A stretch of DNA of 46,274 bases from an uncultured Myxococcales bacterium (GTDB lineage: Bacteria > Myxococcota_A > UBA9042), in contig CALENB010000524.1 of NCBI GenBank assembly GCA_937910235.1, forward strand, positions 1-46,274, given 5' to 3'. How positions within the stretch are numbered: the first letter of the stretch is position 1; every line of letters begins with the position of its first letter. This document shows positions 25,701 through 44,038 of the stretch, one piece after another. Made by a program: the position numbers and the translations under genes. The notes under the pieces are model-generated. The model was given only the letters and a program-made list of their open reading frames with translations, did no database searches and was not told the origin of the DNA.

Positions 25701-25798
25701 GCGGGCGTCAGGCGGCGATGCCGACGACACATCGCGATGAGATCTCGCTGCTCGCGGGCAGCGCACAGTCGATGAACGGATTCGAGGCGGAGGAAGAG

Positions 25799-28700: not shown

Positions 28701-31700
28701 GGATGACGCTGAAGCCCGTGCTGGACCTCTCCTGTGCGGTTGCGCCGACGTTGTACTTCGAGGAGCGCTACTACGGTGCGCCGCTGTCGGTTGAGGTCAG
28801 CCTGGATAACAACGTCTGGACGGTGGTGCACAACGGCACGTCGGGGTCGGACTACGTCTGGCGTCCGCGAGAGGTCGATCTGAGCGGCTACATCGGCAAG
28901 AAGGTCTATCTTCGCTTCGCCACCGCGCCGTCGAACTCAACGTACTGGTCCAACCTGCGTCTCATCGAGATGCGCGAGAAGAAGCCAGCGCCGAAGTTGG
29001 TCACCTGGGGCGCGGCGATGTCGTGCGGCGACTTCGTGATGGAGGGCCCACTGTTCCAGTGCGTGAAGGACGGCGCCGGCTACCAGCTGCAGACCAAAGG
29101 CGCCGCGATGACGCCCGAGGCCTACAAGTACGCCAACATCGCGCGCTTCAACGTGCGCTTTGACCGCACCAAGGTGAAGCTGCCGCGCCTCGTCCTCGAA
29201 GAGCGACATCGCTACAGCTCGCTCTCGGTCCGAATCCGGCAGGCGGGTGAGTTGAAGTGGCAGACGGTGTGGCAGCGCCCTGGCGGCGGGATCATCGACC
29301 CCATCTGGCGGCAGCATCGCATCGACTTGGGTAACGTGCCTGGAGACGTCTGGGAGGTCGCCATCGCGACCAACTACGGCAACACCGACTTCTGGATGGA
29401 CCTGCGCAACATCGCGTTCACCACAACGCCGGCTGACCTGACCCCGCACAAGGCGCCCTACAAGTGGACGAAGTGCGATGGCCTGGATTTGGAGGGCGAC
29501 GCGCTGACGTGCGATCCGACCAGCAAGGTCTACGACTATCGCTGGGAGACCGGTTCGACGGGCGACAAGGGCACGTACAGCTACTGGCACCGCATCAACG
29601 TGTTGCGCCGGGTCGATCTGACGGCGTTGACGAACCCGATCGTGCGTTACTACCAGCGCTACTACCGTGGCGATGCGCGCATCGAGGCGTCGCTGGATGG
29701 GATTCAGTGGACCAGCCACACGTACCAGAACTACGGCGCGTCCGACTACGTGTGGCGCGAGGTCATCGGCGATCTCAGCCAGTACAAGGGCAAAGTGATC
29801 TGGCTCCGCATGGCCATCAACCCGCGCTACTCATCGAGCGTCTGGGGCGAGATCAAGGGGCTGGAGGTGGCGGATACCCCGAAGGCGTGGCCTGTGGTGA
29901 AGTGGGGACCGCAGACGTTCACCTGCAGCCAGTGGGCCTTCGAGGGCACGGGGTGGACGTGCGACGGCACGACGGGATTGAAGCAGGTCGGCAACAGCGA
30001 CCAGCCCAGCCCGAACGCCTACTACCAGGCCGCGACCTACCAGCGCACGTTCGATCTGACCGGGGTCTCCAACGCGGTCGTCCGCTTCGAGCAGCTCAGC
30101 CGCTACGGCGAGCTGCAGCTTGACGTTCGCAAGAAGGGCGGTGGCTGGCTGACGGTGTGGTCGAGGGGCAACGCGCTCGATCCCATCTTCCGGCACGTCG
30201 AGGTGGATCTCTCCGCCTACAGCAGTCAGCAGATCGAGCTGCGATTCAACGGCCGGCCGCTCTACCCGGAGACCCAGCCGCAGAGTCTGGAGATTCGCAA
30301 CGTCACGCTCGGCACGAAGGCGACGCTGCCCACCATCACGTTCGGCGCGGCGATGACCTGCAACTTGTGGCGCAAGGAAGGGGACGCCTTCACGTGCGAC
30401 CCCAACCTAGCCAAGTGGACCTGGCGTGTGAACATCCCGAAGAACGACGGGACCCAGAGCTACTACCACCACGCCGAGTTGATGGCGTGGGTGGACCTGA
30501 CCAAGGCCGTCGACCCGCAGATCTACTTCGATTACGCCGACTACGGTTCGACGTACTTCTACATGCAGGTGATCACCGAGGGGGGTAAGTGGCTCTCGCT
30601 GAACACCGTCTACAACCTGCCCGACTCGCAGTTCCTGACGGAGATGCGCTACGACTTGTCGCCCTACGTCGGCAAGAAGGTGCGCTTCCGCATGCTCGGC
30701 CGGCCGGCGTCCTCCAGCTACTGGACCGAGCTGCACAACATCTCGCTGCGGGAACGCGACAAGATCACGTCGCTCAAGCCCGGCGCGGCGGTGACGACCA
30801 AGGACTTCCGGGCCGAGGGCTCGTGGGCGTATGACACCAAAGACGCGACGTGGAAGAGCGGAACGGCCTATTTCTCGGCCTATCAGACGCTTCGATTGAA
30901 GTCTGCGTTCGACTTGTCGGGCGCATCGAAGCCGGAGCTGCGCTTCCTGAGCCGGTCCAAACACACCTACCAGCTGGTCGACGTCAGCACAGACGGCGTG
31001 CAGTGGTCGAACGTGTGGCTGCTGCAGACCTCTGGTCAACACGTCCCGGATTTCGAGCCCATCATCATCGACCTCAGCCCGTGGGCCGGCCAGAAGCAGA
31101 TCTTCGTGCGCTTTCAGGCCCACCCCTATGGGTCGGTGGCGGATCTGTCCCATTGGTGGGTCAAGAACGTGACCATCGCTGAGCACGTGTCGCTGCCGGT
31201 GGTCAAGGCGCCGGTGACGCTGACGACCGCGCACCTCAACATGACCGGCGAGTGGAAACAGGACGCGACGACGGGCGCGTTCACGCTGAACTACCCGGCG
31301 TCCGCTGCGATCGACGCGACGTACACGGGCTACCATCAGCTCTGGCCGAAGGTGCGCCTCGACCTGAGCGGGCTCAGCACGCCTGAGCTGACGTTCACGA
31401 CGCGTCGCTACAACGCCCTGCCGTACGTGGATATCAGCGTCGACCAGGGCATCACGTGGCAAACGCTGCAGGTCGTCGGGGTGGAGGATGACGTCGTCTG
31501 GCGCGAGCAGTCCGTGGACCTGGGGGCCTACAAGGGCAACAAGTCGGTGATGATTCGTGTGCGCGCGCGCCCCGGCAACAAGGCGTACTGGTGGCAGGTG
31601 AAGGACCTGCGGGTCGACAATCGATTCGTCTACCCATCGGTCAAGGCGGACACGATCTCGGCGCTGACCGCCTGGAAGCTGGAGCAGCCTGGCTGGTCGG

Positions 31701-32041
31701 TCAACGCGGCCGGGTACCTGGAGCGCAAGGTCGACGCCATCAACAAGTACACCTACGCGACGCTGCTGGTCTCGTTCGATCTGAAGACCGTGCCGAAACC
31801 GGTGCTCCACTTCGAAGAGACGGGGCTCAACGTCTCGCGCTACGTCGAGGTCAGCGATGACAACATCATCTGGCAGACGTTCACCGTGCCAGGCGCCGCT
31901 CCTGGCGCGACCTGGACGGCGAAGAGCATCGATCTCCCGTCATTTGGTGGGAGCCCGACCGTCTACGTGCGGATCCGCGGCCATATCGCCGTGAAGGATC
32001 GCTACTGGCGCGTGCGAAAGCTCACGATCAGCAAGAAGTAG
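25799..32041 (+). CDS. Giant Cys-rich repeat lipoprotein 3 (class I), 2080 aa
   Basis: The frame is open from a GTG at 25697 that overlaps the lipoprotein 2 stop (GTGA), but the best start is ATG 25799, with GGAGG five bases upstream (25789-25793). It places the signal peptide core GLMLAGLLAFAAPGC (Cys43) close to the N-terminus; ATG 25802 is equivalent. After the lipobox comes GGTDDEGVVGDA, matching lipoprotein 1. The cap has CTGAVGCPC. The stalk (145-917) has 14 units plus a half, with the atypical unit at number 6. Unit 3 contains an insertion (CTGDTATADTC) shared with lipoprotein 4. Eight C-terminal domains occupy about 918-2080; domain 7 (YTGYHQLWPKVRLDLSGL) closely follows that of lipoprotein 1. 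The lipobox -3 position is Ala rather than Leu, so lipidation is less certain than in the others. Confidence 0.9.
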   Translation: MMSQTMADKTRPAAARWATRCATRQATAGLMLAGLLAFAAPGCGGTDDEGVVGDALSLDVSGLDSSVGADGTQGDAVVGDGLNADGKGTDASGNADAAADAAPADAGPCTGAVGCPCATKDDCDSALCVGIGDAAVCGLDCKGGCDDTNPCTVDLCQPATATGVEPACAHAAAADGGTCDDSNPCTGDGACTAGSCAAGAVKDCADTNPCTTDYCDKSGTCQHDGVSGKPCDDGDVCSVGDACASGACAAGKAQLCDDSNPCTADTCDAKKGCVSTDDDGKSCDDGDACTGDTATADTCKAGSCVAGGAKSCDDDDPCTLDGCASDKGCTHGLQAGAPCSDGDVCTVGDVCGAKGCDAGKAQPCDDGNPCTDNSCDKVNGCVSLPNTVTCTDGNACTTGDACEAAACSPGKLTSCDDNNPCTTDACDPGDGKSSGGCVNSAADGGACVPQDDSCAVTGICAAKACKKVAVTGCDDGNPCTTDACDKATGTCVYNAGKLGVTCDDGNVCTEKDACATGGCKGAARGCSDGNACTTDACDPSVTGGCVNAAGAGLSCNDGDLCTANDACKNGACAAGGKLACDDGNPCTDDSCDAKKGCVNAANSKPCDDNNGCTAGDVCGQGASGVAVCKPGAAKTCDDGKHCTKDICDPKASGGAGGCVSTPDDGLGCDDGDVCTEGDVCKSSTCTSGPAQLCNDDNVCTKDACDPKKGCVTTAIPGPCNDGDICSVGDTCNAGKCAPGKLTVCDDNNACTSDSCHYQKGCVYAALTGACNDGDACTSGDACQGGKCAGAKPTVCDDGNICTDDSCDKLKGCLIKPNTKVCDDNNVCSLGDACSGGTCKAGLKTKVCTDGKVCTADECDKVKGCQFPANSAECSDGNACTKNDQCDTFKCISGPKLSCDDHNLCTDDSCNTTTGCIHAKNSHPAFKAIVDNTTNDSGLWALSASNNKVKWTFSGSYWRMLGSLYAAQRMTLKPVLDLSCAVAPTLYFEERYYGAPLSVEVSLDNNVWTVVHNGTSGSDYVWRPREVDLSGYIGKKVYLRFATAPSNSTYWSNLRLIEMREKKPAPKLVTWGAAMSCGDFVMEGPLFQCVKDGAGYQLQTKGAAMTPEAYKYANIARFNVRFDRTKVKLPRLVLEERHRYSSLSVRIRQAGELKWQTVWQRPGGGIIDPIWRQHRIDLGNVPGDVWEVAIATNYGNTDFWMDLRNIAFTTTPADLTPHKAPYKWTKCDGLDLEGDALTCDPTSKVYDYRWETGSTGDKGTYSYWHRINVLRRVDLTALTNPIVRYYQRYYRGDARIEASLDGIQWTSHTYQNYGASDYVWREVIGDLSQYKGKVIWLRMAINPRYSSSVWGEIKGLEVADTPKAWPVVKWGPQTFTCSQWAFEGTGWTCDGTTGLKQVGNSDQPSPNAYYQAATYQRTFDLTGVSNAVVRFEQLSRYGELQLDVRKKGGGWLTVWSRGNALDPIFRHVEVDLSAYSSQQIELRFNGRPLYPETQPQSLEIRNVTLGTKATLPTITFGAAMTCNLWRKEGDAFTCDPNLAKWTWRVNIPKNDGTQSYYHHAELMAWVDLTKAVDPQIYFDYADYGSTYFYMQVITEGGKWLSLNTVYNLPDSQFLTEMRYDLSPYVGKKVRFRMLGRPASSSYWTELHNISLRERDKITSLKPGAAVTTKDFRAEGSWAYDTKDATWKSGTAYFSAYQTLRLKSAFDLSGASKPELRFLSRSKHTYQLVDVSTDGVQWSNVWLLQTSGQHVPDFEPIIIDLSPWAGQKQIFVRFQAHPYGSVADLSHWWVKNVTIAEHVSLPVVKAPVTLTTAHLNMTGEWKQDATTGAFTLNYPASAAIDATYTGYHQLWPKVRLDLSGLSTPELTFTTRRYNALPYVDISVDQGITWQTLQVVGVEDDVVWREQSVDLGAYKGNKSVMIRVRARPGNKAYWWQVKDLRVDNRFVYPSVKADTISALTAWKLEQPGWSVNAAGYLERKVDAINKYTYATLLVSFDLKTVPKPVLHFEETGLNVSRYVEVSDDNIIWQTFTVPGAAPGATWTAKSIDLPSFGGSPTVYVRIRGHIAVKDRYWRVRKLTISKK
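26231..28549 (+). repeat. Cys-rich stalk repeats of lipoprotein 3: 14 units plus a half
   Basis: 14 bipartite units and a terminal half. Unit 6 carries the variant CVPQDDSCAVTGIC, unit 7 the extra residue (TGTC) and unit 13 the longer trailing linker (GLKTKV). Units 9 and 10 have private insertions (GQGASGVAVC; PKASGGAGGC). Confidence 0.9.
28550..32038 (+). repeat. Eight jelly-roll-like domain repeats of lipoprotein 3
   Basis: Eight domains of about 145 aa. Domains 2-5 have the Cys pair (SCGDFVMEGPLFQC, KCDGLDLEGDALTC, TCSQWAFEGTGWTC, TCNLWRKEGDAFTC); domains 6-8 do not. Domain 1 reads DLSCAVAPTLYF, the class I form. Confidence 0.8.
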
Positions 32042-32129
32042 ACGAACTCGTTCGAGCGCCAACGCGGCGCACAACCACGCGGAGCCCTCCCGGCTCCAGC
32101 GGCCCCCACCCGGGGCTTTGAGGCCGACC

Positions 32130-35100
32130 ATGAACACGACCTCCCTGAATCTACGCTGGCCGCACGGCCTGCTCGTTCTGGGTCTGATTACCGCGACCAG
32201 CGTTGGGTGCGGCGACAATTTGCCGCGCTTTGACGAGGCGACGGCTGACGCTGCGCCCGACGTCGCGGACGCTGCGGACACGACCGACATCGGTGAAGGC
32301 TGCCCAGGGGCGCTCGGCTGCGCCTGCGCGGCCGATGACACCTGCGACAGCGGCTACTGCCATCCTGCGTCGGGCGACAAGCAGGAGGCGCAGTGCGCGA
32401 CGCCGTGCGAGACGGCCGGCGACAAGGGCTGCAATGACGGCAACCCGTGCACCACCGACCTCTGCGACGCCAGCACCGATTCAGATAAGTCCTCGACATG
32501 TTCCCACACGGCTGTGGCCAACGGTGTGGTGTGCAACGACGGCGACGCCTGCACGACGTCGGATGTGTGCGGCGCTGGCGCCTGCGCGGGCGCGGCTAAG
32601 GATTGCGGCGACGGTGATCCTTGCACCACGGACACATGCGAGAAGGCCACCGGCTGCTCGCACGGCGATGACGACGGCAAGGCGTGTGACGATGGCGACG
32701 CCTGCACCGGTGGCAAGGCCGGCGACGCGTGCAAAGGCGGCAAGTGCGCCGGCGGCGCCGCGGTCGATTGTGATGACGCCAACCCGTGTACGACCGACAG
32801 CTGCGACAAGACGACGGGCTGCGGCCACACGGCGCTGGACGGCGGCGGCTGTGACGACGGCAGCGCCTGCACAGGCACCAAGGCCAAGGCCGACACGTGC
32901 GTGAAGGGCGTCTGCGAGCCCGGCGCGCCGGTCGTGTGTGACGACGCCAACCCCTGCACTACCGACGCGTGCGACGCCGCGGCCGGCTGCACGGTCACGG
33001 ACGCGGACAGCACACCCTGTGACGACGGCAACGCCTGCACGTTGGGTGACACCTGCAAATCGGGCGGATGCATCGGCGGAAAGCCGCTCAGCTGCGACGA
33101 CGGCAACCCCTGCACCACGGACGCCTGCGACCCAGACGGCAAGACCTCCGGTAATCAGGGTTGCGTCAACACGGCGCTCGACGGCACCCCGTGCGACGAT
33201 GGGTCGGCCTGTACGGGCGCAAAGGACGCTGCCGGCGATGACGCGGACCACTGCGTGAAGGGCGCCTGTACGCCGGGCGCGCCGAAGAGCTGTGATGACG
33301 CCAACCCGTGTACGACCGACGCGTGCGAGCCGGCCGCCGGCTGCACCATCACCAATGACGATGGCGCGAAGTGTGTGCCAGGCACCGGCAACAAGTGCGA
33401 CACCGGCGGCCTCTGTGCTGGCGGCGCGTGCAAGGTTGTGCAGCAGGTGGGCTGCGATGACGGCAACCCCTGCACGGCGGACAGCTGCGACCAAACCACT
33501 GGGCTGTGTGTGTACAAGTCCGCGTCGGACGGTGCGCAGTGCAGTGACGGCAACCCGTGCACCGACCAAGACGCCTGCAAATCCGGGGTATGCGCGGCGA
33601 AGCCGAAGGTCTGCGACGACGATAACGTCTGCACCGCCGACGCCTGCGATCCCGCGCCGGCGACGGGCCCTGGCGGCTGCACGACCAAGCCGCTCGACGG
33701 TAAGTCGTGCAGCGACGGGACCGTGTGCACCAGCGGAGACGTCTGCGCGGCGGGCACGTGCAAAGGCGGCAAGGCGCTCTCTTGCGACGACAACAACCCC
33801 TGCACCATCGACCTCTGCGACAAGGCCAAGGGCTGCGCGTCGACGCAGAAGACGGGCGATTGCGACGACGGCAACGCTTGCACCGACAAGGACACCTGCA
33901 AGGCTGGCTGGTGTAACCCAGGTGGCCTCAAGGTCTGCGATGACGCGAACGCCTGCACCACGGACAGCTGTGACCCGAAGCAGGGCTGCAAGAACGACGC
34001 GGTCGCGGCGAGCTGCAACGATGGCAACCTCTGCACCGTGGCCGATACGTGCGACAAGGGCAGCTGCAAGTCCGGCACGACGCAGACCTGTGACGACAAC
34101 AACGACTGCACGGCCGACACCTGCGACCCGAAGATCGGCTGCCAGAGCGTGACGACAAAAGCCCCCTGTAGTGACGGCGACGTCTGCACGGTCGGCGACG
34201 CCTGTAAGGGCGATCTCTGTGTCCCCGGCGCTGGCGTCAAGGACTGCGACGACAAGAACGCCTGCACCGTCGATGTGTGCGACCCGACCAAGGGCTGCGT
34301 CGTGACCGACAGCCTGAACGCGTGCACCGACGGCGACGCGTGCACCGTTGGCGACTCGTGCAAAAGCGGCAAGTGCGTGGCCGGCGCCAGCCAGCTGTGC
34401 AACGACGGCAACCCCTGCAGCGACGACAGCTGCGACGCGAAGAAGGGGTGCATCCAGGTCCCGAACAGCAAGGCCTGCGACGACGGCAACGCCTGCACGC
34501 TCGGCGATGCGTGCAAGGCGGGCTACTGCCAGGGCGGCGGCCAGACCAAGACGTGCGACGACAAGAATCCATGCACAGACGACTTCTGCGACCCCGCCAA
34601 AGGCTGCAGCCAGGTGTTGACGACGAAGCTGTGCAACGACGGCGACGCCTGCACGGTCGACGACGCCTGTGTGTCGGGCAAGTGCAAAGGTGGCAGCCCG
34701 AAGGACTGCAGCGACGACAACACCTGCACCGACGATGTGTGCGACCAGACGACGGGCTGCAAACACACGAACAACACCAAGAACCCGTTCACGCCCATCA
34801 ACGACAGCGGCGCCGAAGACTCCGGCAAGTGGGCCTTCTCAGCGACGAAGGGCGCCGGGGCGTTCACCCACGTTGGCGCTGGCTACTACCGGCTCGCGGC
34901 GGGCGTGGTTGGCGAGACGTACGCGATGACGCTCAAAGCGCCCATCGACTTGGCGTGCACCGGTAAGCCGACCCTGTATATCGTGGACCGCTACGCCGTC
35001 GGCACCGCCGTCGTGGAGACGAGCCTCGACGGCAAGGCGTGGAAGACCCTCGCGACACACACTGGTTCAGACTACGTGTGGCGTCGACGGTACTGGGATC

Positions 35101-38100
35101 TGGGCGCGTTTGTGGGCAAAAAGCTGTATTTGCGGCTCTTGAGCAAGGTCACGTCGGCCGACCAGTGGTGGGACATCCGGGGCATCGAGATCAAGGAGAA
35201 GGAGCCGCTGCCGAAGAAGGTCGCGTGGGGAACGACGTTCGGCTGCAGCGATCTGCGCTACGTCGGTCCAGCGTTCAACTGCGACGCCTCCGAGTCTCCC
35301 TATCAGGTGCGTTACCACGGCGTGGTCCAGGAGCCTGACACCAACCTCCACCCCAACACGGCGGTGCCGAAGATGCTCTTCGACACGAAGGGCGTGACCG
35401 ATCCGGCGGTGAGCTTCGAGGAGCGCAGCTACGCCGGTGGTTTGTGGGTCGACGTGCGCGAGCCTGAGGGCGCGTGGAAGCAGGTCTACGCCCGCGGCGC
35501 CGTCAGCGACTATGTGTGGCGCCCGCGGACCATCTACCTCACCGCCTACAAGGGCAAAGTGCTGGAGTTCCGATTCCGAGCGACGATGGGCACGACGGCT
35601 TGGACGCACATCCGCAGCGTCAAGATGTTTGACGAGGCGCCGCCGACGCTGCCCGCCATCGTCAAGGCGCCGCTGGCGCTGAAGGCCTGCGCAGATTGGC
35701 AGATGGATGGCACGGCGTGGCTGTGTGACAACGCGCAGACGATCTTCAAGCTGGCCTACGTCGGCGACCCGTCGGTGGACTACAACACCAACGGCTACGC
35801 CCACGCCGTTCAGTACGACAAGCGGATCGATCTGAGCGCGATGACCTCGCCGGAGCTGACGTTTGAGCATCGCTACTACTACGGGACGATGTACGTCTAC
35901 CTCTCGACGAACGGCACGAGCTGGACGACGGTGTACTCACACGGCAACGGCTCGGACTACCTGTGGCGGCAACAACGCCTGGATCTGTCGTCCTGGCAGG
36001 CGAAGAAGACGCCGATCTACGTCCGCATCCTCGTCTATCCGTACACGGCCACGGGCTGGGGACACCTGCGCAACATCAAGATCGAGGAGCAGCCCAAAGC
36101 GCTGGACACGGTGGCCTATGGCACCAAGCTCAACAGCTGCGGTTGGTGGAGTTGGGAGGGGCCGAGCTGGAAGTGTGACCCGACGGAGACGAAGTGGTTG
36201 TTCCGCGTCGATGGCGTGGACACCGTCCCGGATCCAGGCGGCTACTGGCAGTACAACACGCTACAGCGCTGGATCGACGTGCCCAACAAGGGCCAGCCGA
36301 GCTTTCAGATCGAGTACCGCCGCAACTACAGCTACATTCAGCTCCAGGTCAGCACCAACGGCACCAGCTGGAGCAACCTCATGGGCAACACGGGCTCAGC
36401 GGCTGACTTTGTATGGCGGCCACTTCGCGCGGACTTGTCCTCCTACAAGGGCAAGAAGATCATGCTCCGCATCGGCGCAATCCCAAGCATCTATGGCCGC
36501 TGGATCGAGCTGCGCAAGCCGGCGTTCCAGGAGTTCAACACGTGGCCAACGGTGAAGTTCGGCGGCATGCCGGTCTGCCAGGACTGGCTGTTCGAGGGCA
36601 CCGCGTGGACGTGTGGCTCAGGCTCCGACGGCTATCAGCTTCGCTACGTGGGGTCTACCGAGCAGCCCTCGCCTGACTACAGCTACCACTACGCGACGCG
36701 CGCGGCGCTGATCGACCTCAAGGATACGAAAAATCCGACGATGTACTTTGAGGCCAGCCGCACGCTGGGCTACCTCAGGATCTTCGTGTGGGGACCGGAA
36801 GACTCGTACCAACAGCTCTTTGACACGAGCAACACGTCGCTGCCCTTCTACCGACGTTATGCGGTGGATCTGACCAAGTTTGCTGGCCGCAAGATCTACG
36901 TCCGCCTCGGCGCGCTGCCCTACGGTGCGACGGCATCCGGCAAGATCCGCAACCTGATCTTCAAGGAGCGCGAGGCGGTGAAGGTGGTCAAGTACACCCA
37001 CGCCATCCAGCCTGACGATTGGTGGATGGAAGGCGGCTGGCACTACGACACGAGCGCGGCCCGGTACGAGCAAGACGGTACGGTCATCAACGTCTACCAC
37101 GACATGTACACCAAGATGAAGATCGACCTGACCGGCCTCACTGCGCCGCAGCTCAGCTTCAAGCAGACCAATAACAACGTGACCCGCTACGTCTATGTGA
37201 GCGAGGACGGCGCAACCTGGCAGAACGCCCAGTACATCGGCGCTGGCTACGACCCGGTCGAGCGTGTCGCCACCGTTGACCTGACAAAGTGGAAGGACAA
37301 GGCCATCTACCTGAGTTTCCGGGGCCACGTCGGCACGACTGACCGCTGGTGGCGTCTCCGAGACTTCGAGTTTCACGAGCCCGTGGTCGTCAACACCGTC
37401 CCCGCCGGCACCACCCTCGCGACCGATCAGTTTACCATCGAGGGCCTTTGGAAGTGGCTGACGCTCGAGAAGGCCTACGGGATGAACTACGGCGTCGGCG
37501 GTTCGACGCAGGACAAGTTGCTCCTGAACACGTACCAGTCGCTGACCGCCACCGCCGCTTGGGATATCACCAAGTTGAAGGCGCCGACGCTCATCTTCGA
37601 CGAGCGCGCTACGGGCAGCTACTCGTACCATCGCCTCGAGTTCAGCTTGGACGGCGCGGATTGGAAACACCTGGGGTATGGCAGCCAGCAGGCCACCGGC
37701 ACGGCGTTCCGGCGCGCGACGTTCGACCTGTCAACGTCAGGCGCCAAGAGCACGATTCGTGTGCGCTTCCGCGGCTACCCGTCCACCAGTGAGTATCACT
37801 GGACCGTCAAGAACGTGCGCCTCGCCGAGCCGCCCATGGTCACCGTCTTGCAGCCCGGCACGACGCTCAAATCCACGGACGTGCAGTACTACGGCGGCTG
37901 GACGTATGGCTCAGGTTACTTCGAGAAAGTGCTCAAGAGCACCAACGAGTACAACTTCCTGGAGATGCGCGACACGGCGTACAACCTGAGCGGCACCTCC
38001 AAGCCGGTCGTCGTGTTCGAAGAGGGCTACCTGCAGTGCAACGTCTATGTGTACTGCAGCCACGACGGCGGCGCCTCCTGGATCTACGTCAACGGGCTGT

Positions 38101-38255
38101 CGCAAAACGGCCAATATCTCGGCTTCAAGCAGCGCACGGTGTCGCTGGCGAGCTGCGCCAACAAGCCACAGGTGCAGCTGAGATTTCACGTGACGCAGCG
38201 CTACTCACCCGGCGAGTACTGGCGCATTCGCAACATCGTCGTCCTCAAGCAGTAG
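32130..38255 (+). CDS. Giant Cys-rich repeat lipoprotein 4 (class II), 2041 aa
   Basis: ATG 32130 follows TTGAGG at a suitable distance; an in-frame TTG at 32118 is less likely. The short signal peptide has core LLVLGLITATSVGC (Cys27), then CGDNLP as in lipoprotein 2, and an Asp/Ala tether. The cap has CPGALGCAC and PCETAGDKG. The stalk (101-879) has 14 bipartite units and a half. Unit 6 is the conserved atypical one, and units 2, 3 and 5 carry insertions after CTG. Eight C-terminal domains fill 880-2041. Domain 6 (RYVYVSEDGATWQNA) and domain 7 (NYGVGGS, WDITKLKAPTLIFDER) match lipoprotein 2. Uniquely, domain 8 contains three Cys residues. It lies 88 bases after lipoprotein 3 and 168 bases before the nSTAND gene; function unknown. 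Confidence 0.9.
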   Translation: MNTTSLNLRWPHGLLVLGLITATSVGCGDNLPRFDEATADAAPDVADAADTTDIGEGCPGALGCACAADDTCDSGYCHPASGDKQEAQCATPCETAGDKGCNDGNPCTTDLCDASTDSDKSSTCSHTAVANGVVCNDGDACTTSDVCGAGACAGAAKDCGDGDPCTTDTCEKATGCSHGDDDGKACDDGDACTGGKAGDACKGGKCAGGAAVDCDDANPCTTDSCDKTTGCGHTALDGGGCDDGSACTGTKAKADTCVKGVCEPGAPVVCDDANPCTTDACDAAAGCTVTDADSTPCDDGNACTLGDTCKSGGCIGGKPLSCDDGNPCTTDACDPDGKTSGNQGCVNTALDGTPCDDGSACTGAKDAAGDDADHCVKGACTPGAPKSCDDANPCTTDACEPAAGCTITNDDGAKCVPGTGNKCDTGGLCAGGACKVVQQVGCDDGNPCTADSCDQTTGLCVYKSASDGAQCSDGNPCTDQDACKSGVCAAKPKVCDDDNVCTADACDPAPATGPGGCTTKPLDGKSCSDGTVCTSGDVCAAGTCKGGKALSCDDNNPCTIDLCDKAKGCASTQKTGDCDDGNACTDKDTCKAGWCNPGGLKVCDDANACTTDSCDPKQGCKNDAVAASCNDGNLCTVADTCDKGSCKSGTTQTCDDNNDCTADTCDPKIGCQSVTTKAPCSDGDVCTVGDACKGDLCVPGAGVKDCDDKNACTVDVCDPTKGCVVTDSLNACTDGDACTVGDSCKSGKCVAGASQLCNDGNPCSDDSCDAKKGCIQVPNSKACDDGNACTLGDACKAGYCQGGGQTKTCDDKNPCTDDFCDPAKGCSQVLTTKLCNDGDACTVDDACVSGKCKGGSPKDCSDDNTCTDDVCDQTTGCKHTNNTKNPFTPINDSGAEDSGKWAFSATKGAGAFTHVGAGYYRLAAGVVGETYAMTLKAPIDLACTGKPTLYIVDRYAVGTAVVETSLDGKAWKTLATHTGSDYVWRRRYWDLGAFVGKKLYLRLLSKVTSADQWWDIRGIEIKEKEPLPKKVAWGTTFGCSDLRYVGPAFNCDASESPYQVRYHGVVQEPDTNLHPNTAVPKMLFDTKGVTDPAVSFEERSYAGGLWVDVREPEGAWKQVYARGAVSDYVWRPRTIYLTAYKGKVLEFRFRATMGTTAWTHIRSVKMFDEAPPTLPAIVKAPLALKACADWQMDGTAWLCDNAQTIFKLAYVGDPSVDYNTNGYAHAVQYDKRIDLSAMTSPELTFEHRYYYGTMYVYLSTNGTSWTTVYSHGNGSDYLWRQQRLDLSSWQAKKTPIYVRILVYPYTATGWGHLRNIKIEEQPKALDTVAYGTKLNSCGWWSWEGPSWKCDPTETKWLFRVDGVDTVPDPGGYWQYNTLQRWIDVPNKGQPSFQIEYRRNYSYIQLQVSTNGTSWSNLMGNTGSAADFVWRPLRADLSSYKGKKIMLRIGAIPSIYGRWIELRKPAFQEFNTWPTVKFGGMPVCQDWLFEGTAWTCGSGSDGYQLRYVGSTEQPSPDYSYHYATRAALIDLKDTKNPTMYFEASRTLGYLRIFVWGPEDSYQQLFDTSNTSLPFYRRYAVDLTKFAGRKIYVRLGALPYGATASGKIRNLIFKEREAVKVVKYTHAIQPDDWWMEGGWHYDTSAARYEQDGTVINVYHDMYTKMKIDLTGLTAPQLSFKQTNNNVTRYVYVSEDGATWQNAQYIGAGYDPVERVATVDLTKWKDKAIYLSFRGHVGTTDRWWRLRDFEFHEPVVVNTVPAGTTLATDQFTIEGLWKWLTLEKAYGMNYGVGGSTQDKLLLNTYQSLTATAAWDITKLKAPTLIFDERATGSYSYHRLEFSLDGADWKHLGYGSQQATGTAFRRATFDLSTSGAKSTIRVRFRGYPSTSEYHWTVKNVRLAEPPMVTVLQPGTTLKSTDVQYYGGWTYGSGYFEKVLKSTNEYNFLEMRDTAYNLSGTSKPVVVFEEGYLQCNVYVYCSHDGGASWIYVNGLSQNGQYLGFKQRTVSLASCANKPQVQLRFHVTQRYSPGEYWRIRNIVVLKQ
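32430..34766 (+). repeat. Cys-rich stalk repeats of lipoprotein 4: 14 units plus a half
   Basis: 14 bipartite units and a terminal half. Unit 6 variant CVPGTGNKCDTGGLC, unit 7 extra residue (TGLC) and unit 13 longer trailing linker (GGQTKT) match the other three. Unit 3 shares the CTGxxxxADTC insertion with unit 3 of lipoprotein 3. Confidence 0.9.
34767..38252 (+). repeat. Eight jelly-roll-like domain repeats of lipoprotein 4
   Basis: Eight domains of about 145 aa. The Cys pair is present in domains 2-5 (GCSDLRYVGPAFNC, ACADWQMDGTAWLC, SCGWWSWEGPSWKC, VCQDWLFEGTAWTC) and absent from 6 and 7. Domain 8 instead has QCNVYVYC and SCANK, three Cys at 38037-38156. Confidence 0.8.
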
Positions 38256-38312
38256 GCGCCCATCGATCGTGACCGCCATGAGCAGCGCGACGCGGGCCTG
38301 AGTCGAGCGGCT

Positions 38313-38350
38313 CACCGCGACCGGCGTTTATCTACCGGTGGCGCGTTCTT
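38313..38350 (+). terminator. Possible hairpin after the giant lipoprotein cluster
   Basis: CGCG-ACCGG (38316-38324) can pair with CCGGT-(GG)-CGCG (38335-38345) around a ten-base loop, and is followed by TTCTTGT. CACCG/CGGTG is an alternative pairing. The stem is imperfect and the T-tract poor, so it could attenuate rather than end transcription into the nSTAND gene. Confidence 0.35.
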
Positions 38351-38423
38351 GTGGCACTTTCGGGCGGGGGCCTAGCGGCGGGTGTACGAGCGCGCGCGGG
38401 TCCTCATCAGCCTTGAGGTGCAC

Positions 38424-40925
38424 GTGACGTTCAAACCTGAGCCCGAGCCGATGGGCCAACCGTCGGATGGCGCCTGCCCTTACGTCGGCTTGGTGGCGTT
38501 CCACGAGAGCGACGCAGCGCGTTTTCACGGCCGCGACACTGAGATCTCCGCGCTGCTCGTGCGTCGGGAAGAGCACGGTGACCGACCGCTCGTGATCATC
38601 GGTCCGAGTGGTTGCGGCAAGTCATCGCTGATCGCCGCTGGACTCATCCCGCAGCTCCGCAAAAACGCCGCAGATCAGGGCGAAGAGCTGCGCACGCACT
38701 CGATGGTGCCGACCCGGTTTCCACTCGAGGCGCTCGCGGTGGCCCTGGGCAGCCGCCAGTCGCAGACCGACGCAGAGTCCTTTGCCCTGAGCACCGAGCA
38801 GGCCGTGCACTTGGGCCGTGTGGAGACAGGGCCGACGCTGCTCGTGGTGGATCAGTTCGAGGAGCTGTTCAGCCTCTGCGCGCGCGTCGACCGACAACAG
38901 GCCTTCGCCGCCGCGCTCGTGGCCCTCGCCGCCGACGCCGAGGCTCGGACGACCGTCGTTATCGCCCTGCGCAGCGAGGCCGAGGACCGCCTCGTGGCGC
39001 TGCCTGAGCTTCAGGAGCTCGTGCGTAGCAACGCGATGCGGGTACCGCCGCTGTCAGCTGTGAACCTGCGCCGCGCCATCGAGCGACCCGCGCACGCGGT
39101 GCGTGTGGGCTTCGAGGAGGGCGTGGTCGAGCGCTTGGTTGACGAGGTGGAGGGCGAGGTCGCCGCCCTGCCCTTGCTGCAGTTCACCCTGTTGGCCCTG
39201 TGGCAGCGACGGCGCGACAGCCTCATCACGATGGCCGCGATGGACGAGATCGGCGGCGCGCGTCGTGCGCTGGAGAAGAGCGCCGAGGCCGTCTACCTCG
39301 CCCTGATCCCTGAGGAGGCGAACTGCGCACGGCGCGTGTTCGGTCGCCTGGTGCGCTGTGCGGAGTCCGGCGAGTTTGTGCGGCGACGCGCGCTCCGGAG
39401 CGAGCTGCGCAGCCTGGAGGATCCGAGCCGTGTGGACCGCGTCATGCAGCCCTTTGTCGCGGCGCGTCTGCTGGTGCAGCGACCGATCGAACGCGACGCC
39501 GTCCTCGAGATCACCCACGAGAGCCTGCTGCGCTCTTGGCCCCGATTTGCGGCCTGGTTGGAAGACAGCCGCCACCTGCTGCGCCAGCACGCCCAGCTAC
39601 AAGAGGCGATGACGCGGTGGCGCGCAGGCAACGGCGACGTAGCGGACCTGCTGAGTCCCGGACGCATCGCGGCGTTCAGCGAGCTCACGGAGCTCGACGG
39701 CGAAGAGAAGCGTTTTCTGAAACAAAGCTCGGAGCATTGGCAGTGGATGGCGCAACGCAGTCTCGGCCGCCGCCGGCTGACGTTCGCGGCGCTTGGGATC
39801 GTCGCGGCGGTCGCAGCGGGCGGTTGGTGGTTTGCGTGGCAGGCCAATCAAGGCGCGCGTGACCTCGCCGCACAGGCGAAGCAGCAGGCCCTGCTCGCAC
39901 ACCAGCAGCGCGACCTGACGCAAGCGGCGAGCGGCCGGGAGTCGGCGCAGCGCAAGGTCGCCGATGGGCAGCGCACCCTGGCCGCCAACGCTCGCAAGGA
40001 GGCCGATCTGCGGACCGCCAAGGCCGTCGAGCTGCAGCAGAAGCTTGAGGTCGCGCGGGATCAGCTGCGCAAGGACCTGAGTACGTCGCGCGGCCGAGAG
40101 GTCGACACCGCGGAAGGCCTCGTGCGCCTGCTCGAGCGCGCGTTGCCGGATCTCGGAACCCTGGCGAGGCCGGCGCCCGACGACACGCGCGATGCCAGTG
40201 ATTTCGATGGCGCGCGACGCGGACTCGTCGAGGTCGGCAAGCTCGCGGCGTATGTGCGCAGCCGGGTGTCGCTGCTCGACGCGGTCGTCAACAGCAAGGA
40301 GCGGCAGCGCGACAAGGAGTCGCTCAAGTCGATGCGGGCCCTTCACCTGCGGGTGAGCAACATGAAGCAGCGGCTGCAGTACTTCGACGCGCAGCTGCAG
40401 ATCAGGCGCAAGCAACTCGAGCTGGCCCAGCGCCGTGACCATCAATGGGCGACCCTCACGCCGGCGACGCGCGCGCGGGCGACGACGTTGTCGGCGGTGC
40501 GGATCAGCTTACAGGCCGAGAAACAGCGCCTGCAGGCGCTCGCCGGCAAACGCACGGTGGCGGCGGACGCAGCGGTGTGGGAGGCGGCGAAGAAGCTGAG
40601 CGCGGCGCGCAAACCAGCCAATGAGCGCGCCCTGGTCATGAACACTGTGGGGCTGGCTTGGTACGGGTCGGGCCGATTTGCAGAAGCGCAGAAGAGCTTC
40701 GCGGCCGCGAGCCGCGCCGCGGTCAGCAACGTGCGGCGGGACCGTTACGTCATCAACCGCGCGTGGGCCGCCTACAGGGAGGCGGTAGGGCGAGAAGGGG
40801 TTGAGCGCGACAAGCTCCTGCTCCGCGCCGACGGGCTCATCCGCGATGCGGAGCGTCGCGACCCGCGGGCCAGCGCGCTGCGCGACCGGCTCCACGTGCT
40901 CAGCTATGCGTTGGAGACCCCCTAG
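38424..40925 (+). CDS. nSTAND1-type NTPase with transmembrane helix and TPR-like tail, 833 aa
   Basis: The start is taken as GTG 38424, five bases after TTGAGG; GTG 38382 and ATG 38451 are in-frame alternatives. The N-terminus CPYVGLVAFHESDAARFHGRD is the standard nSTAND1 opening. Walker A is GPSGCGKSS (residues 60-68) and Walker B TLLVVDQFEELF (about 137-148). LPLLQFTLLALWQRR and ITHESLLRSWPRFAAWLED complete the STAND core. A single transmembrane helix lies near 451-473, then a long Gln/Arg/Ala coiled coil (about 475-560). The tail (about 740-820) looks TPR-like (GLAWYGSGRFAEAQKSFAAAS). The usual WD40 propeller is missing. STAND proteins are signal-driven NTPase switches; this one is membrane-tethered. 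It lies 168 bases after lipoprotein 4, suggesting but not proving a shared role. Confidence 0.88.
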   Translation: MTFKPEPEPMGQPSDGACPYVGLVAFHESDAARFHGRDTEISALLVRREEHGDRPLVIIGPSGCGKSSLIAAGLIPQLRKNAADQGEELRTHSMVPTRFPLEALAVALGSRQSQTDAESFALSTEQAVHLGRVETGPTLLVVDQFEELFSLCARVDRQQAFAAALVALAADAEARTTVVIALRSEAEDRLVALPELQELVRSNAMRVPPLSAVNLRRAIERPAHAVRVGFEEGVVERLVDEVEGEVAALPLLQFTLLALWQRRRDSLITMAAMDEIGGARRALEKSAEAVYLALIPEEANCARRVFGRLVRCAESGEFVRRRALRSELRSLEDPSRVDRVMQPFVAARLLVQRPIERDAVLEITHESLLRSWPRFAAWLEDSRHLLRQHAQLQEAMTRWRAGNGDVADLLSPGRIAAFSELTELDGEEKRFLKQSSEHWQWMAQRSLGRRRLTFAALGIVAAVAAGGWWFAWQANQGARDLAAQAKQQALLAHQQRDLTQAASGRESAQRKVADGQRTLAANARKEADLRTAKAVELQQKLEVARDQLRKDLSTSRGREVDTAEGLVRLLERALPDLGTLARPAPDDTRDASDFDGARRGLVEVGKLAAYVRSRVSLLDAVVNSKERQRDKESLKSMRALHLRVSNMKQRLQYFDAQLQIRRKQLELAQRRDHQWATLTPATRARATTLSAVRISLQAEKQRLQALAGKRTVAADAAVWEAAKKLSAARKPANERALVMNTVGLAWYGSGRFAEAQKSFAAASRAAVSNVRRDRYVINRAWAAYREAVGREGVERDKLLLRADGLIRDAERRDPRASALRDRLHVLSYALETP

Positions 40926-41395
40926 TCCGTCTCCTCAGCGGCGCTCATCTCGCGCGCCGCCAACCCAAGCGCGACCAACAGCGTCAGCGCGCCCGGCGGC
41001 ACCAACAGCGCCGCCGCGATGCCCGGATCGCCGCCGTGTACCCACACGCCGCCCAGCGCAAAACCGCCGGGCAGCAGCACCGTGGCGATGCGCAGCAGCC
41101 TGCCGATCCAGCGCCGCCGTCGCACGTCGCCGCGGCCGAGGACGGCCAGACTCGCGCCCCAGGCGATGTGGATGAGGCTCAACAGCGTCCCGTGCGCGTG
41201 GGCCAGCGTCCACATCAGCCGACGCGTCTCCTGCCCCACATCGAGGTATCCGGCGACTTTGAAGCCGTGCAGCGCTTCGAGGCCCAGCCCCGCCGTCGCG
41301 AACAGCAGCAGGCCCCACCAGCCAAATCGCAGCGCGGCCTGAGCTTGAGATGGCGGTGCGTCGGCCGCGTCCGTCGTGGGGTTACGCGGTGACAA
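40922..41395 (-). CDS. Four-helix integral membrane protein of unknown function, 157 aa
   Basis: I do not recognise the family. The only plausible start is TTG 41395, which lies inside leuS, so the genes overlap by 14 bases in different frames and translation may be coupled to leuS termination. The protein has four hydrophobic segments, near residues 24-44, 66-88, 98-117 and 125-148. Several His residues lie in or beside helices (ALHGFKV, AHAHGTLLSLIHIAWG, GVWVHGGD), which could bind heme or metal, but this is only suggestive. The C-terminus is soluble and acidic (SAAEETD). Its stop (40922-40924) and the nSTAND stop (40923-40925) share CTAG, so the two genes converge with no gap. Confidence 0.75.
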   Translation of the reverse strand: MSPRNPTTDAADAPPSQAQAALRFGWWGLLLFATAGLGLEALHGFKVAGYLDVGQETRRLMWTLAHAHGTLLSLIHIAWGASLAVLGRGDVRRRRWIGRLLRIATVLLPGGFALGGVWVHGGDPGIAAALLVPPGALTLLVALGLAAREMSAAEETD

Positions 41396-43952
41396 TGCTG
41401 ACCATCTTGCCGGGCTTGACGATGATCTTGCGCACCACCTTGCCCTCGGTCCACTTCATGACCCGGTCGTCGGCCAGCGCGACGGTCTCGAGATGGGTCT
41501 CGGCGCTGTCGCTGGGCACCTCGATCTTGGCGCGCACTTTGCCGTTCACCATCACCGGCAGCAGATACGTCGCCCGCACCAGCTTCGCCGAATCAAACGT
41601 CGGCCACGGCTGGTGACTCAGCGACGGTCCATGACCCAAGCGTCGCCACAGCTCCTCGGTGAGGTGGGGCGCATAGGGCGACAACAGCACGAGCAGCTTC
41701 TCAGCGACCTCGCGATACAACACGTCACCGCGCAAGAGCTCATTGAGCGCCTCCATCATCGCCGCGATCGCCGTGTTAAAGCGCAGCTCCGCCGTGTCCT
41801 CGGTCACTTTCTTGATCAGACCGTGGAGCAAGCTGGCCGTCGCTTCCGGCAGCGGCGCGTCGCTCAACGGCTTCTGATACAGGCTCCAGAAGCGATAGGT
41901 GAACCGGCGAGTGCCATGCATGCCCGCGGTCTGCCACGGCTTGACCTTCTCGAGCGGCCCCATGAACAGGATGTAGAGCCGGAACGCGTCGGTGCCGAAC
42001 TCGCGCAGCATGTCGTCAGGATTGACCACGTTGCCACGCGACTTGCTCATCTTCTCGCCGTCTTCGCCCAGGATCATGCCCTGGTTCACCAGCCGCGGGA
42101 ACGGCTCATCGGTCGGCACCACGCCCATGTCGAAGAGCACCTTGTGCCAAAAGCGCGCATACAGCAGGTGCAGCACCGCGTGCTCCGCGCCACCGACGTA
42201 CAGCGTCACGGGGAGCCAGTAGTCGACAGCCTCCGACGAGGCCGGAAAATCAGGGTTTTTCGGGTCCGCGAAGCGCAGGTAGTACCAGCACGAACCGGCC
42301 CACTGCGGCATGGTGTTGGTCTCACGCGCGTACCAATCCCCATCCTGCTCGAAGAAGCGCCAGTCGAGACAGCGGGCCAGCGGCGGCTCGCCAGATTCGT
42401 TGGGTTTGTAGTCGCTCGTCTCCGGCAGGCGCAGCGGCAGCTCGTCCTCGTTCACGGCGATCGGGGTCTGGTAGTCGATGCGCACGTCGTCGCCGCGACG
42501 CGGGTCCCACAGCGCGCGATCGTCCGCGTCGTCGCCCGGAAAACAGGGGTAGTAGACGGGAATGGGCTCGCCCCAGTAGCGCTGCCGGGAGAAGACCCAG
42601 TCGCGGAGCTTGTAGTTGACCTTGGCGTCGCCGAGCCCCTCTTGGGTCAACCACGCGCTGATGCGATCCTTGAAGATGTCCGTCGCCATGCCGTCAAACC
42701 CGGCGGAGTTGCAGGCGACGCCCTTCTCGCAGAAGGCCTCGTCCAGCGGATCGGTCGGGTCGCCATCTTTCGGCATCACCACGCGCAGGATCGGCAGCTC
42801 AAACGCCGTCGCAAACTCAAAGTCGCGCGCGTCGTGGCCGGGCACCGCCATGATCGCGCCGGTGCCGTAGCCACCGAGCACATAGTCCGCCGTCCAGATC
42901 GGGATGCGCGCGCCGTTCACGGGGTTGATCGCATAAGCGCCGGTGAACACCCCGGTCTTCTCAGCGCGTTCATCCTGACGGGCGCGCTCGCTCTTGCGCG
43001 CGGCGTTCGCGGCGTAGGCCTGGACCGTGGAACGCTCAGCATCGGTGGCGATGACGTCGAGCAGGTCATGCTCGGGCGCCAACACCACGTACGTCGCCCC
43101 AAACAGGGTGTCGGGCCGCGTGGTGTAGACCTTGACGCTGAACTCGTGGCCCTCGACCTTGAAATCAACCTCAGCGCCCTCAGATCGGCCGATCCAGTTG
43201 CGCTGCATGGCCTTGATGCCCTCTGCCCAATCCAGATCCTCCACGCCGCGCAGCAGCTCCTCAGCGTAGGCGGTGATGGCGAGCATCCACTGCCGCATCG
43301 GGCGCCGCACCACCGGGTGGCCGCCACGCTCGCTGAGGCCATCGATGACCTCCTCGTTGGCGAGCACGGTGCCCAGGGCCGGACACCAGTTCACCGGCAC
43401 CTCGCTCTGGTAGGCCAACCCGCGCTCAAAGAGCTGCAGGAAGATCCACTGGGTCCACTTGAAGTAGGCGGGATCGGTGGTGTCGACCTCGCGGTCCCAG
43501 TCGTAGGAGAAGCCGAGCGCCTGAATCTGGCGGCGAAAGTTGTCGATGTTCTTCGCCGTGGTGGCGCGCGGGTGCGTGCCGGTCTGGATCGCGTACTGCT
43601 CGGCGGGCAGGCCAAAGGCGTCCCACCCCATCGGGTGCAGCACGTTCACGCCGGTGTGGCGCTGGTATCGACACCAGACATCGGTCGCGGTGTAGCCCTC
43701 TGGGTGGCCGACGTGCAGGCCGGCGCCGGATGGGTAGGGGAACATGTCGAGCACATAGGCGCGCTTGTCGTTGTCGGGGTCGATCTCCGCCTTAAAGGTC
43801 TTGTTCTCAACCCAATAGCGCTGCCAGCGGGCATCGGTCGTGGAGAAATCGAAGCGCTCGTCGGCGGGGACGGCGGCTTGTCCGGCGAGCGGCACGGCAG
43901 CGAGAGGCGCGGTGGCGTGAGGCGGGGCGGGGCTAGTCGAGACGGTGGCCAT
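41382..43952 (-). CDS. leuS: Leucyl-tRNA synthetase, 856 aa
   Basis: This class I aminoacyl-tRNA synthetase charges tRNA-Leu in the cytosol. The HIGH-type motif is HVGH (80-83) in YPSGAGLHVGHPEGYTATD, and KMSKS is at 634-638 in GEKMSKSRGNVVNPDD. The editing domain is intact, with YGTGAIMAVPGHDARDFEFA containing the conserved Asp that aids removal of mischarged amino acids. WAGSCWYYLRFADP and the C-terminal KPGKMVSIV are typical. The start is ATG 43952, preceded by GAAGGAG; ATG 43973 upstream in frame would place that site inside the gene. The protein has an unusual Ala/Pro-rich leader of about 35 residues before the conserved FDFSTTDARWQRYW. It lies 86 bases downstream of the cyclophilin gene and overlaps the next membrane-protein gene. 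Confidence 0.97.
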   Translation of the reverse strand: MATVSTSPAPPHATAPLAAVPLAGQAAVPADERFDFSTTDARWQRYWVENKTFKAEIDPDNDKRAYVLDMFPYPSGAGLHVGHPEGYTATDVWCRYQRHTGVNVLHPMGWDAFGLPAEQYAIQTGTHPRATTAKNIDNFRRQIQALGFSYDWDREVDTTDPAYFKWTQWIFLQLFERGLAYQSEVPVNWCPALGTVLANEEVIDGLSERGGHPVVRRPMRQWMLAITAYAEELLRGVEDLDWAEGIKAMQRNWIGRSEGAEVDFKVEGHEFSVKVYTTRPDTLFGATYVVLAPEHDLLDVIATDAERSTVQAYAANAARKSERARQDERAEKTGVFTGAYAINPVNGARIPIWTADYVLGGYGTGAIMAVPGHDARDFEFATAFELPILRVVMPKDGDPTDPLDEAFCEKGVACNSAGFDGMATDIFKDRISAWLTQEGLGDAKVNYKLRDWVFSRQRYWGEPIPVYYPCFPGDDADDRALWDPRRGDDVRIDYQTPIAVNEDELPLRLPETSDYKPNESGEPPLARCLDWRFFEQDGDWYARETNTMPQWAGSCWYYLRFADPKNPDFPASSEAVDYWLPVTLYVGGAEHAVLHLLYARFWHKVLFDMGVVPTDEPFPRLVNQGMILGEDGEKMSKSRGNVVNPDDMLREFGTDAFRLYILFMGPLEKVKPWQTAGMHGTRRFTYRFWSLYQKPLSDAPLPEATASLLHGLIKKVTEDTAELRFNTAIAAMMEALNELLRGDVLYREVAEKLLVLLSPYAPHLTEELWRRLGHGPSLSHQPWPTFDSAKLVRATYLLPVMVNGKVRAKIEVPSDSAETHLETVALADDRVMKWTEGKVVRKIIVKPGKMVSIVTA

Positions 43953-44038
43953 GGGGCGGGCTCCTTCGGTCATTTAAGGCGCAGACGATGCCGGGTGGCG
44001 CGCGCGGGTTCAAGGCGTTGGCGCCACGCGCTACCAAG

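Follow-up and report, generated by a model that had tools for sequence, protein, structure and literature searches.

The NTPases of the nSTAND1 clade, named in PMC8195603, are sometimes present in EACC1 systems according to the same paper. In EAD-coupled and EACC1 conflict systems, a modular effector is recruited to an NTPase or core component, and in the two-gene EACC1 system the EACC1 domain gene lies 5′ of a caspase gene (PMC7159879). STAND targets with C-terminal lectin sensors have already been described, one of them predicted to be periplasmic (PMC10907252). Our analyses centered on an nSTAND1 NTPase encoded on the forward strand of a 46,274-nucleotide contig from an uncultured Myxococcales bacterium (CALENB010000524.1; the whole stretch is termed the window). 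This protein shares with nSTAND1 (PF20703) proteins the core, the Walker motifs, the His-Glu motif and a membrane helix ∼400 residues past Walker A. However, it contains neither WD40 repeats nor an N-terminal effector or adaptor domain, and its tail is TPR-like. Unlike the EAD-coupled and EACC1 systems, it harbors no EAD or effector.

The NTPase gene (38424..40925, + strand) is an intact, stop-free ORF of 833 codons that begins with GTG at 38424, immediately preceded by GAGGT; the first in-frame start downstream of the previous stop is a GTG at 38382. The nSTAND1 core spans residues 19 to 403 (38478..39632), which match PF20703 with an E value of 9e-103 and 345.2 bits against a cut-off of 27.1, covering model positions 1 to 375 of 379. 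Both Walker A (GPSGCGKSS, residues 60 to 68, 38601..38627) and Walker B (LLVVDQFEEL, residues 139 to 148, 38838..38867) are intact and lie at conserved alignment positions. Motif and alignment checks showed that the conserved residues G60 to S68, D143/E146/E147 and the His-Glu motif H365/E366 are all kept, and that the protein departs from the family at two nearly invariant positions, with Glu in place of D185 and Ala in place of F186. A single hydrophobic helix is formed by residues 452 to 470 (39777..39833), with an N-in/C-out orientation predicted by charge. Pfam gave no WD40 match up to E 1, and a TPR_2 match that was weak (E 0.15). The genome of the window is a 7.1-Mb draft in 593 contigs, in which this protein is the sole nSTAND1 above the Pfam cut-off.

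Sequence searches for a solved structural relative of nSTAND1 returned P-loop matches only. The AlphaFold model of the full protein, built on an alignment of 42 sequences (mean pLDDT 87, pTM 0.57), contains a compact core, a long helix (residues 426 to 499) within which the membrane segment lies, additional long helices and, at the end, helical repeats. By VIA-align, the core, a STAND/ORC-type AAA+ domain that is presumably cytoplasmic, is closest to the ORC/Cdc6 structure 1w5t (Z 17.7, 259 aligned residues, rmsd 3.1). It also aligns with Apaf-1 (3shf; Z 15.1, 300 aligned residues, rmsd 5.8) and, over a Z range of 13.7 to 15.1, with Apaf-1, NLR and MalT-type chains, MalT being the name that we take to apply to a matched entry titled maltose-system regulation. 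Despite this likeness in fold, the window protein differs from those STAND proteins in having a membrane helix and in having no CARD, LRR, WD40 or DNA-binding output. Past the membrane helix, the models place a long-helix/coiled-coil region at about residues 476 to 677 (39849..40454) and a TPR-like tail, a candidate periplasmic sensor, at about residues 684 to 833 (40473..40922). Modeled alone, from four sequences only, the tail is all-helical (mean pLDDT 82), and its last ∼150 residues align mostly with TPR chains (VIA-align Z 10.9 to 13.2). Because helical repeats score easily, and because Foldseek with the tail model alone gave no match at E ≤ 0.001, the TPR-like label is likely but not proven. 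Six of the 50 tail structure-alignment rows are CorA/ZntB/MRS2-type chains on the coiled-coil part, which we take as the common resemblance of long helices. The architecture given in a preliminary description, namely an intact nSTAND1 core with Walker A and B, one transmembrane helix and a coiled coil, with no WD40 propeller, is thus borne out, and its TPR-like tail is retained as the likely assignment.

The membrane helix was compared across 94 nSTAND1 proteins, comprising 90 motif-chosen proteins, the window protein and its three congeners (genomes G001, G002 and G003); since the 90 were chosen by a motif regular expression from loci resembling the window protein, the proportions are no survey of the nSTAND1 family. 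An alignment-based contig scan gave 214 relatives, and the 80 best entered the analysis; a single-protein scan of genome contigs gave no match. A hydrophobic helix was found in 91 of the 94 proteins, at a median of 401 residues past Walker A. The N-terminal side of the helix is richer in Lys and Arg in 84 of these 91, equal in 7 and reversed in none. For this charge count the helix cut-off was 1.35, lowered from an initial 1.6, at which the G003 protein shows none, so as to include that protein; the same three of the 90 motif-chosen proteins were without a helix at both cut-offs. The helix of the window NTPase is therefore an ordinary nSTAND1 feature and not a special one. The charge bias would place the C-terminal modules of these proteins outside the cytoplasm, which agrees with the earlier suggestion that the part after the helix may be periplasmic; the variable sensors of the nSTAND1 proteins compared are thus probably exposed outside the cytoplasm. 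WD40 repeats occupy the C-terminal module in 28 of 37 proteins sampled (every second of the 74 plus-strand proteins). Other modules are FGE-sulfatase or SH3 domains in some proteins and, by eye, pentapeptide-like repeats in one. Two loci from genomes of the same class or family (L011 and L013) encode a Ser/Thr kinase fused to nSTAND1 and a transmembrane helix, with a coiled-coil tail in L011 and an FGE-sulfatase tail in L013.

A core tree was calculated with IQ-TREE from 94 rows; it is unrooted and was drawn with a midpoint root. In it the window protein groups with G001 (support 100/90), then with G003 (100/92) and then with G002 (100/98), which sits on a long branch. By raw core identity the window protein is nearer G003 (64 to 65%) than G001 (59%), against the sister pair in the tree. 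The four proteins of the genus fall in a group of nine (100/98) with those of Leptolyngbya (L052), Stenomitos (L056), Caldilineaceae (L055) and Roseiflexus (L053 and L054). An HMM of an N-terminal domain of ∼100 residues, here termed the adaptor, was seeded with G003, G002, L052, L055 and L056 and further matched L053 and L054, so that it hits 7 of the 94 proteins. These are the other seven of the group of nine; neither the NTPase of the window nor that of G001 matched, and none of the remaining 85 did. Six-frame scans of the window and of the G001 contig revealed no adaptor and no partner (see below) above noise, the one partner-profile match (E 0.61), which crosses lipoprotein 2 of the window in a different frame, being treated as noise. 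A wrongly placed start as the explanation for the absent N terminus was rejected, since the frame closes just 5′ of 38382 and the six-frame HMM scan contained neither adaptor nor partner. A single loss of the adaptor before the window and G001 lineages split would be the parsimonious reading.

The relatives that carry the adaptor are mostly encoded as the second gene of a pair. The gene directly upstream encodes a TIR domain in G003 (3-base gap), a CHAT domain in L052, L053, L054 and L055, and EAD10 in L056, and all six partner genes abut or overlap the NTPase gene within 4 bases. The pairing is not absolute, as G002 has the adaptor with no TIR, CHAT or EAD10 gene upstream. The six partners have in common a helical C-terminal domain of ∼320 residues (A2), four copies of which are 23 to 27% identical to that of G003. 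No Pfam family matched A2 at E 0.01 in the six partners, and none lies above its cut-off in any of the seven copies; in the seventh, from genome G350, a spectrin-like model touches the domain at 20.6 bits against a cut-off of 33.2. The best sequence match of the partner domain to a solved structure, one toxin-named chain at E 0.018, was treated as chance. A held-out search for A2 in genomes of the phylum, in which five candidates per genome were scored, found it in at least 2 of 377 (G003 and G350), a lower bound. In G350 the protein with TIR_2 and A2 overlaps an adaptor–nSTAND1–WD40 gene by 8 bases. Thus, all seven A2 partners seen lie directly 5′ of an adaptor–nSTAND1 gene, and seven of the eight loci checked with an adaptor-bearing NTPase have a partner (the exception being G002), one of the seven as a held-out prediction. 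The A2 copies are at L050:8639-9688, L052:8742-9689, L053:8748-9713, L055:967-1923, L056:8754-9722 and L138:8322-9743, with another in L054.

The set can accordingly be described as a gene for TIR, CHAT or EAD10 plus the ∼320-residue helical domain, followed by a gene for the ∼100-residue N-terminal domain, nSTAND1, a transmembrane helix and a variable sensor, as found in G003, G350, L052, L053/L054, L055 and L056. We found no description of it in the STAND literature consulted. Its members have the cores closest to the window protein in the tree (G350 is not in the tree), and the G003 orthologue lies at the same locus. The L052 and L056 proteins, like that of the window, have a transmembrane helix and a coiled coil and lack WD40. 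Their helical tails look TPR-like by eye (with no Pfam TPR match); homology between these tails and that of the window was not demonstrable (hhalign probability 0.1). In contrast, the window gene has neither the N-terminal domain nor a partner, and the sensors of L053 and G350 end in WD40 and that of L055 in SH3. The gene upstream of the window NTPase is lipoprotein 4 rather than a partner, and profile and single-protein searches of the draft MAGs detected no partner domain in the window genome, G001 or the 67% complete G002. This compact effector/NTPase family is a better lead than the orphan in the window that exposed it.

The NTPase lies between an HMGL-like/DmpG aldolase gene (12024..13076, − strand) and a leucyl-tRNA synthetase (LeuRS) gene (41382..43973, − strand), both conserved flanks. 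A small membrane protein, 67% identical to its G003 homolog, is encoded between NTPase and LeuRS (40922..41395, − strand). In a search of 52 genomes, the three congeners alone had full-length NTPase orthologs, and four genomes, all of one genus, matched the tail (window 39630-40922). The order aldolase, NTPase, LeuRS is kept in the window genome, G001 and G002; in G003 the aldolase side and the small-membrane-protein side are kept. In the window, the interval between aldolase and NTPase is occupied by four giant CTDC-repeat lipoproteins (13498..38255, + strand), neighbors that our analysis places outside the NTPase system. The repeats were identified by Pfam in two of the ORFs and by motif count in all four, and lipobox-like N termini by regular expression in the first three; the fourth reads SVGC. 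Lipoprotein 4 and the NTPase are on the same strand, separated by exactly 168 bases (38256..38423), as first described. Of the co-transcription check proposed for this gap, a simple scan of 37900-38700 found neither of the elements that would break the link, a sigma-70 promoter or an intrinsic terminator; read-through is neither shown nor excluded.

The array adjoins the NTPase in only one of the four genomes of the genus, that of the window; judged by the criterion set in the preliminary description, the orthologs are thus situated mostly apart from such lipoproteins. In G001 (L036), LeuRS and the HMGL-like aldolase flank the NTPase and no giant lipoprotein intervenes; a 417-residue lipoprotein-like gene lies ∼840 bp upstream on the same strand, and two Cys-rich ORFs (808 and >620 residues) lie 13 and 27 kb off on the 37-kb contig. 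In G002, where a contig of 11.3 kb carries the locus (L040), the NTPase has a small gene on one side and LeuRS on the other, with no giant lipoprotein nearby on that locus. In G003 (L038), a 2636-residue lipoprotein of another type (Laminin_G_3) and then the TIR gene are upstream on the same strand, and a CTDC lipoprotein is ∼12.7 kb downstream. Congener neighbors labeled PPIase, AhpC-like or lipoprotein are readings of the sequence unless a Pfam family is named. The G001 array itself is elsewhere: contig C147 carries three genes (the first cut in the fetched stretch) and the start of a fourth, in window order as judged by their ends, and the end of contig C52 carries the remainder of this gene (70% identity to lipoprotein 4 across 977 residues), after which come an ammonium transporter and P-II. 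As the fourth gene is split between them, the two contigs presumably adjoin in G001. The C-terminal half of lipoprotein 4 had no match in G003 or in the 67% complete G002. The order of the four-lipoprotein array is thus conserved between the window genome and G001 (L136, L135) at different chromosomal sites.

Our preferred reading, to which we give a probability of about 0.5, is that the window protein is a membrane-anchored STAND switch with a periplasmic sensor that descends from a two-gene conflict pair, has lost its adaptor and partner, and acquired the lipoproteins as later neighbors. The nSTAND1 core would be cytoplasmic, one N-in/C-out helix would cross the inner membrane, and the coiled coil and TPR-like domain would be periplasmic. 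The ancestral pair would have combined a TIR-, CHAT- or EAD10-bearing partner with an adaptor–nSTAND1–transmembrane–sensor protein; adaptor and partner gene would have been lost in both sister genomes, that of the window and G001, leaving the NTPase at its ancestral locus between aldolase and LeuRS, and a later rearrangement would have brought in the giant lipoproteins. By analogy with the STAND class, a ligand at the periplasmic tail might shift the ADP/ATP state, upon which the core would oligomerize; output might then pass across the membrane or go to a protein acting in trans. The preliminary description proposed instead that the NTPase reads the state of the adjoining surface appendages. 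The shared strand, the 168-bp gap with no terminator found and the probably periplasmic tail agree with such a role, and the presence of an upstream lipoprotein in three of four genomes, those of G001 and G003 being unrelated and likewise on the NTPase strand, is mild evidence for it. However, these three lipoproteins differ in kind, G001 has both NTPase and array but apart, which argues that the two move independently, and the G002 NTPase has no giant lipoproteins at its locus. Furthermore, CTDC-repeat proteins are abundant in all 19 genomes searched, that of the window included, where 37 clusters in the first 100 of 325 motif matches extrapolate to ∼116, so that an adjoining CTDC gene is a ∼2% event if the genome holds an assumed ∼5,500 genes. 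Gene order thus largely refutes the role as a lipoprotein sensor, which we consider very improbable; the position beside the giant lipoproteins looks accidental, and an appealing but weak connection of a STAND switch with the array is removed. The other option originally offered, an unrelated defense or signaling gene, fits better, as the clade is mostly paired with TIR, CHAT or EAD10 genes. That the protein still acts as a defense switch, recruiting via another interface an effector whose gene lies elsewhere in the genome, would accord with this pairing and with one weak TIR-like gene in the window genome. However, this gene falls short of its cut-off (27.1 versus 28) and lies on another contig (C200), the domain presumed to meet the partner is absent, and PADLOC-DB 2.0 offered no system protein family beyond the P-loop (mad3/mad8 only, E 0.001 to 0.004), making a surviving defense switch unlikely.

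Whether the gene is functional or decaying bears on two further readings. The NTPase is 53, 49 and 32% identical to its orthologs in G001, G003 and G002, compared to 76 to 86% for LeuRS and aldolase; toward G001 alone the values are 52.9% versus 77.5 to 82.4% for LeuRS, aldolase, symporter and a PPIase-like gene, and the symporter drops to 63% toward G002. This fast divergence, the missing adaptor and partner, and loss of the His-Glu motif near residue 365 in the G002 protein are what a decaying relic of an effector/NTPase pair, drifting toward disappearance, would present, and the changed D185 and F186 also lean to decay. Against this, the reading frame and Walker motifs are intact in all four congeners. 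Moreover, the codon positions match between window and G001 at 65, 70 and 43% (first, second and third), so that third positions have changed far more than the others, and this bias, together with retention of the gene in both sister genomes, leans to function. Identity between window and G001 is 59% in the core and 44 to 49% in the coiled coil, middle and tail; toward G003 the core remains at 65% but the tail regions fall to 23 to 24%, with almost no codon-position bias (e.g., 40/44/44) in an alignment that is unsure at 23% identity, which would suit a tail that evolved fast, was exchanged or is misaligned. The missing bias toward G003 would suit a relic, whereas the better conservation of the tail toward G001 would not. 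Retained function and slow decay both fit these sequences, and the best reading is that the NTPase is either kept for some output or decaying after losing its effector arm. A relic we regard as possible, though doubtful. Equally tentative is a domesticated transmembrane STAND switch from an immune-type pair, which, having lost its effector-recruiting domain and its TIR/CHAT-type partner, would have been kept as an ATPase receptor with a new output, either sensing the envelope on its own or damping systems of this type. A functional orphan would amount to a natural experiment on a STAND core deprived of its effector.

The G003 locus contains a run of three genes (L038:15178-19623 and L039:82-1827; NTPase and TIR gene also in L050), encoding a TIR protein, an adaptor–nSTAND1–transmembrane protein and a channel-like protein with TrkA_N and RyR domains and two hydrophobic helices, the last following the NTPase gene after 24 bases. 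Phage RyR-domain proteins that cleave or sequester cADPR immune signals have been reported (PMC13232231). Taken with this report, the gene run raises the idea of a TIR/nSTAND1/RyR-channel signaling trio and suggests that a TIR signal may be read by the RyR-domain channel in G003; a RyR domain was found in one of 19 genomes searched. The G003 partner also matches the PADLOC TIR models (SAVED_TIR, E 1e-16). A TIR-like membrane protein with the motif FIIHHPD is encoded both on contig C200 of the window genome (L134) and in G001 (contig C18, L037:13174-14775), where it shares a contig with the NTPase, ∼24 kb apart.
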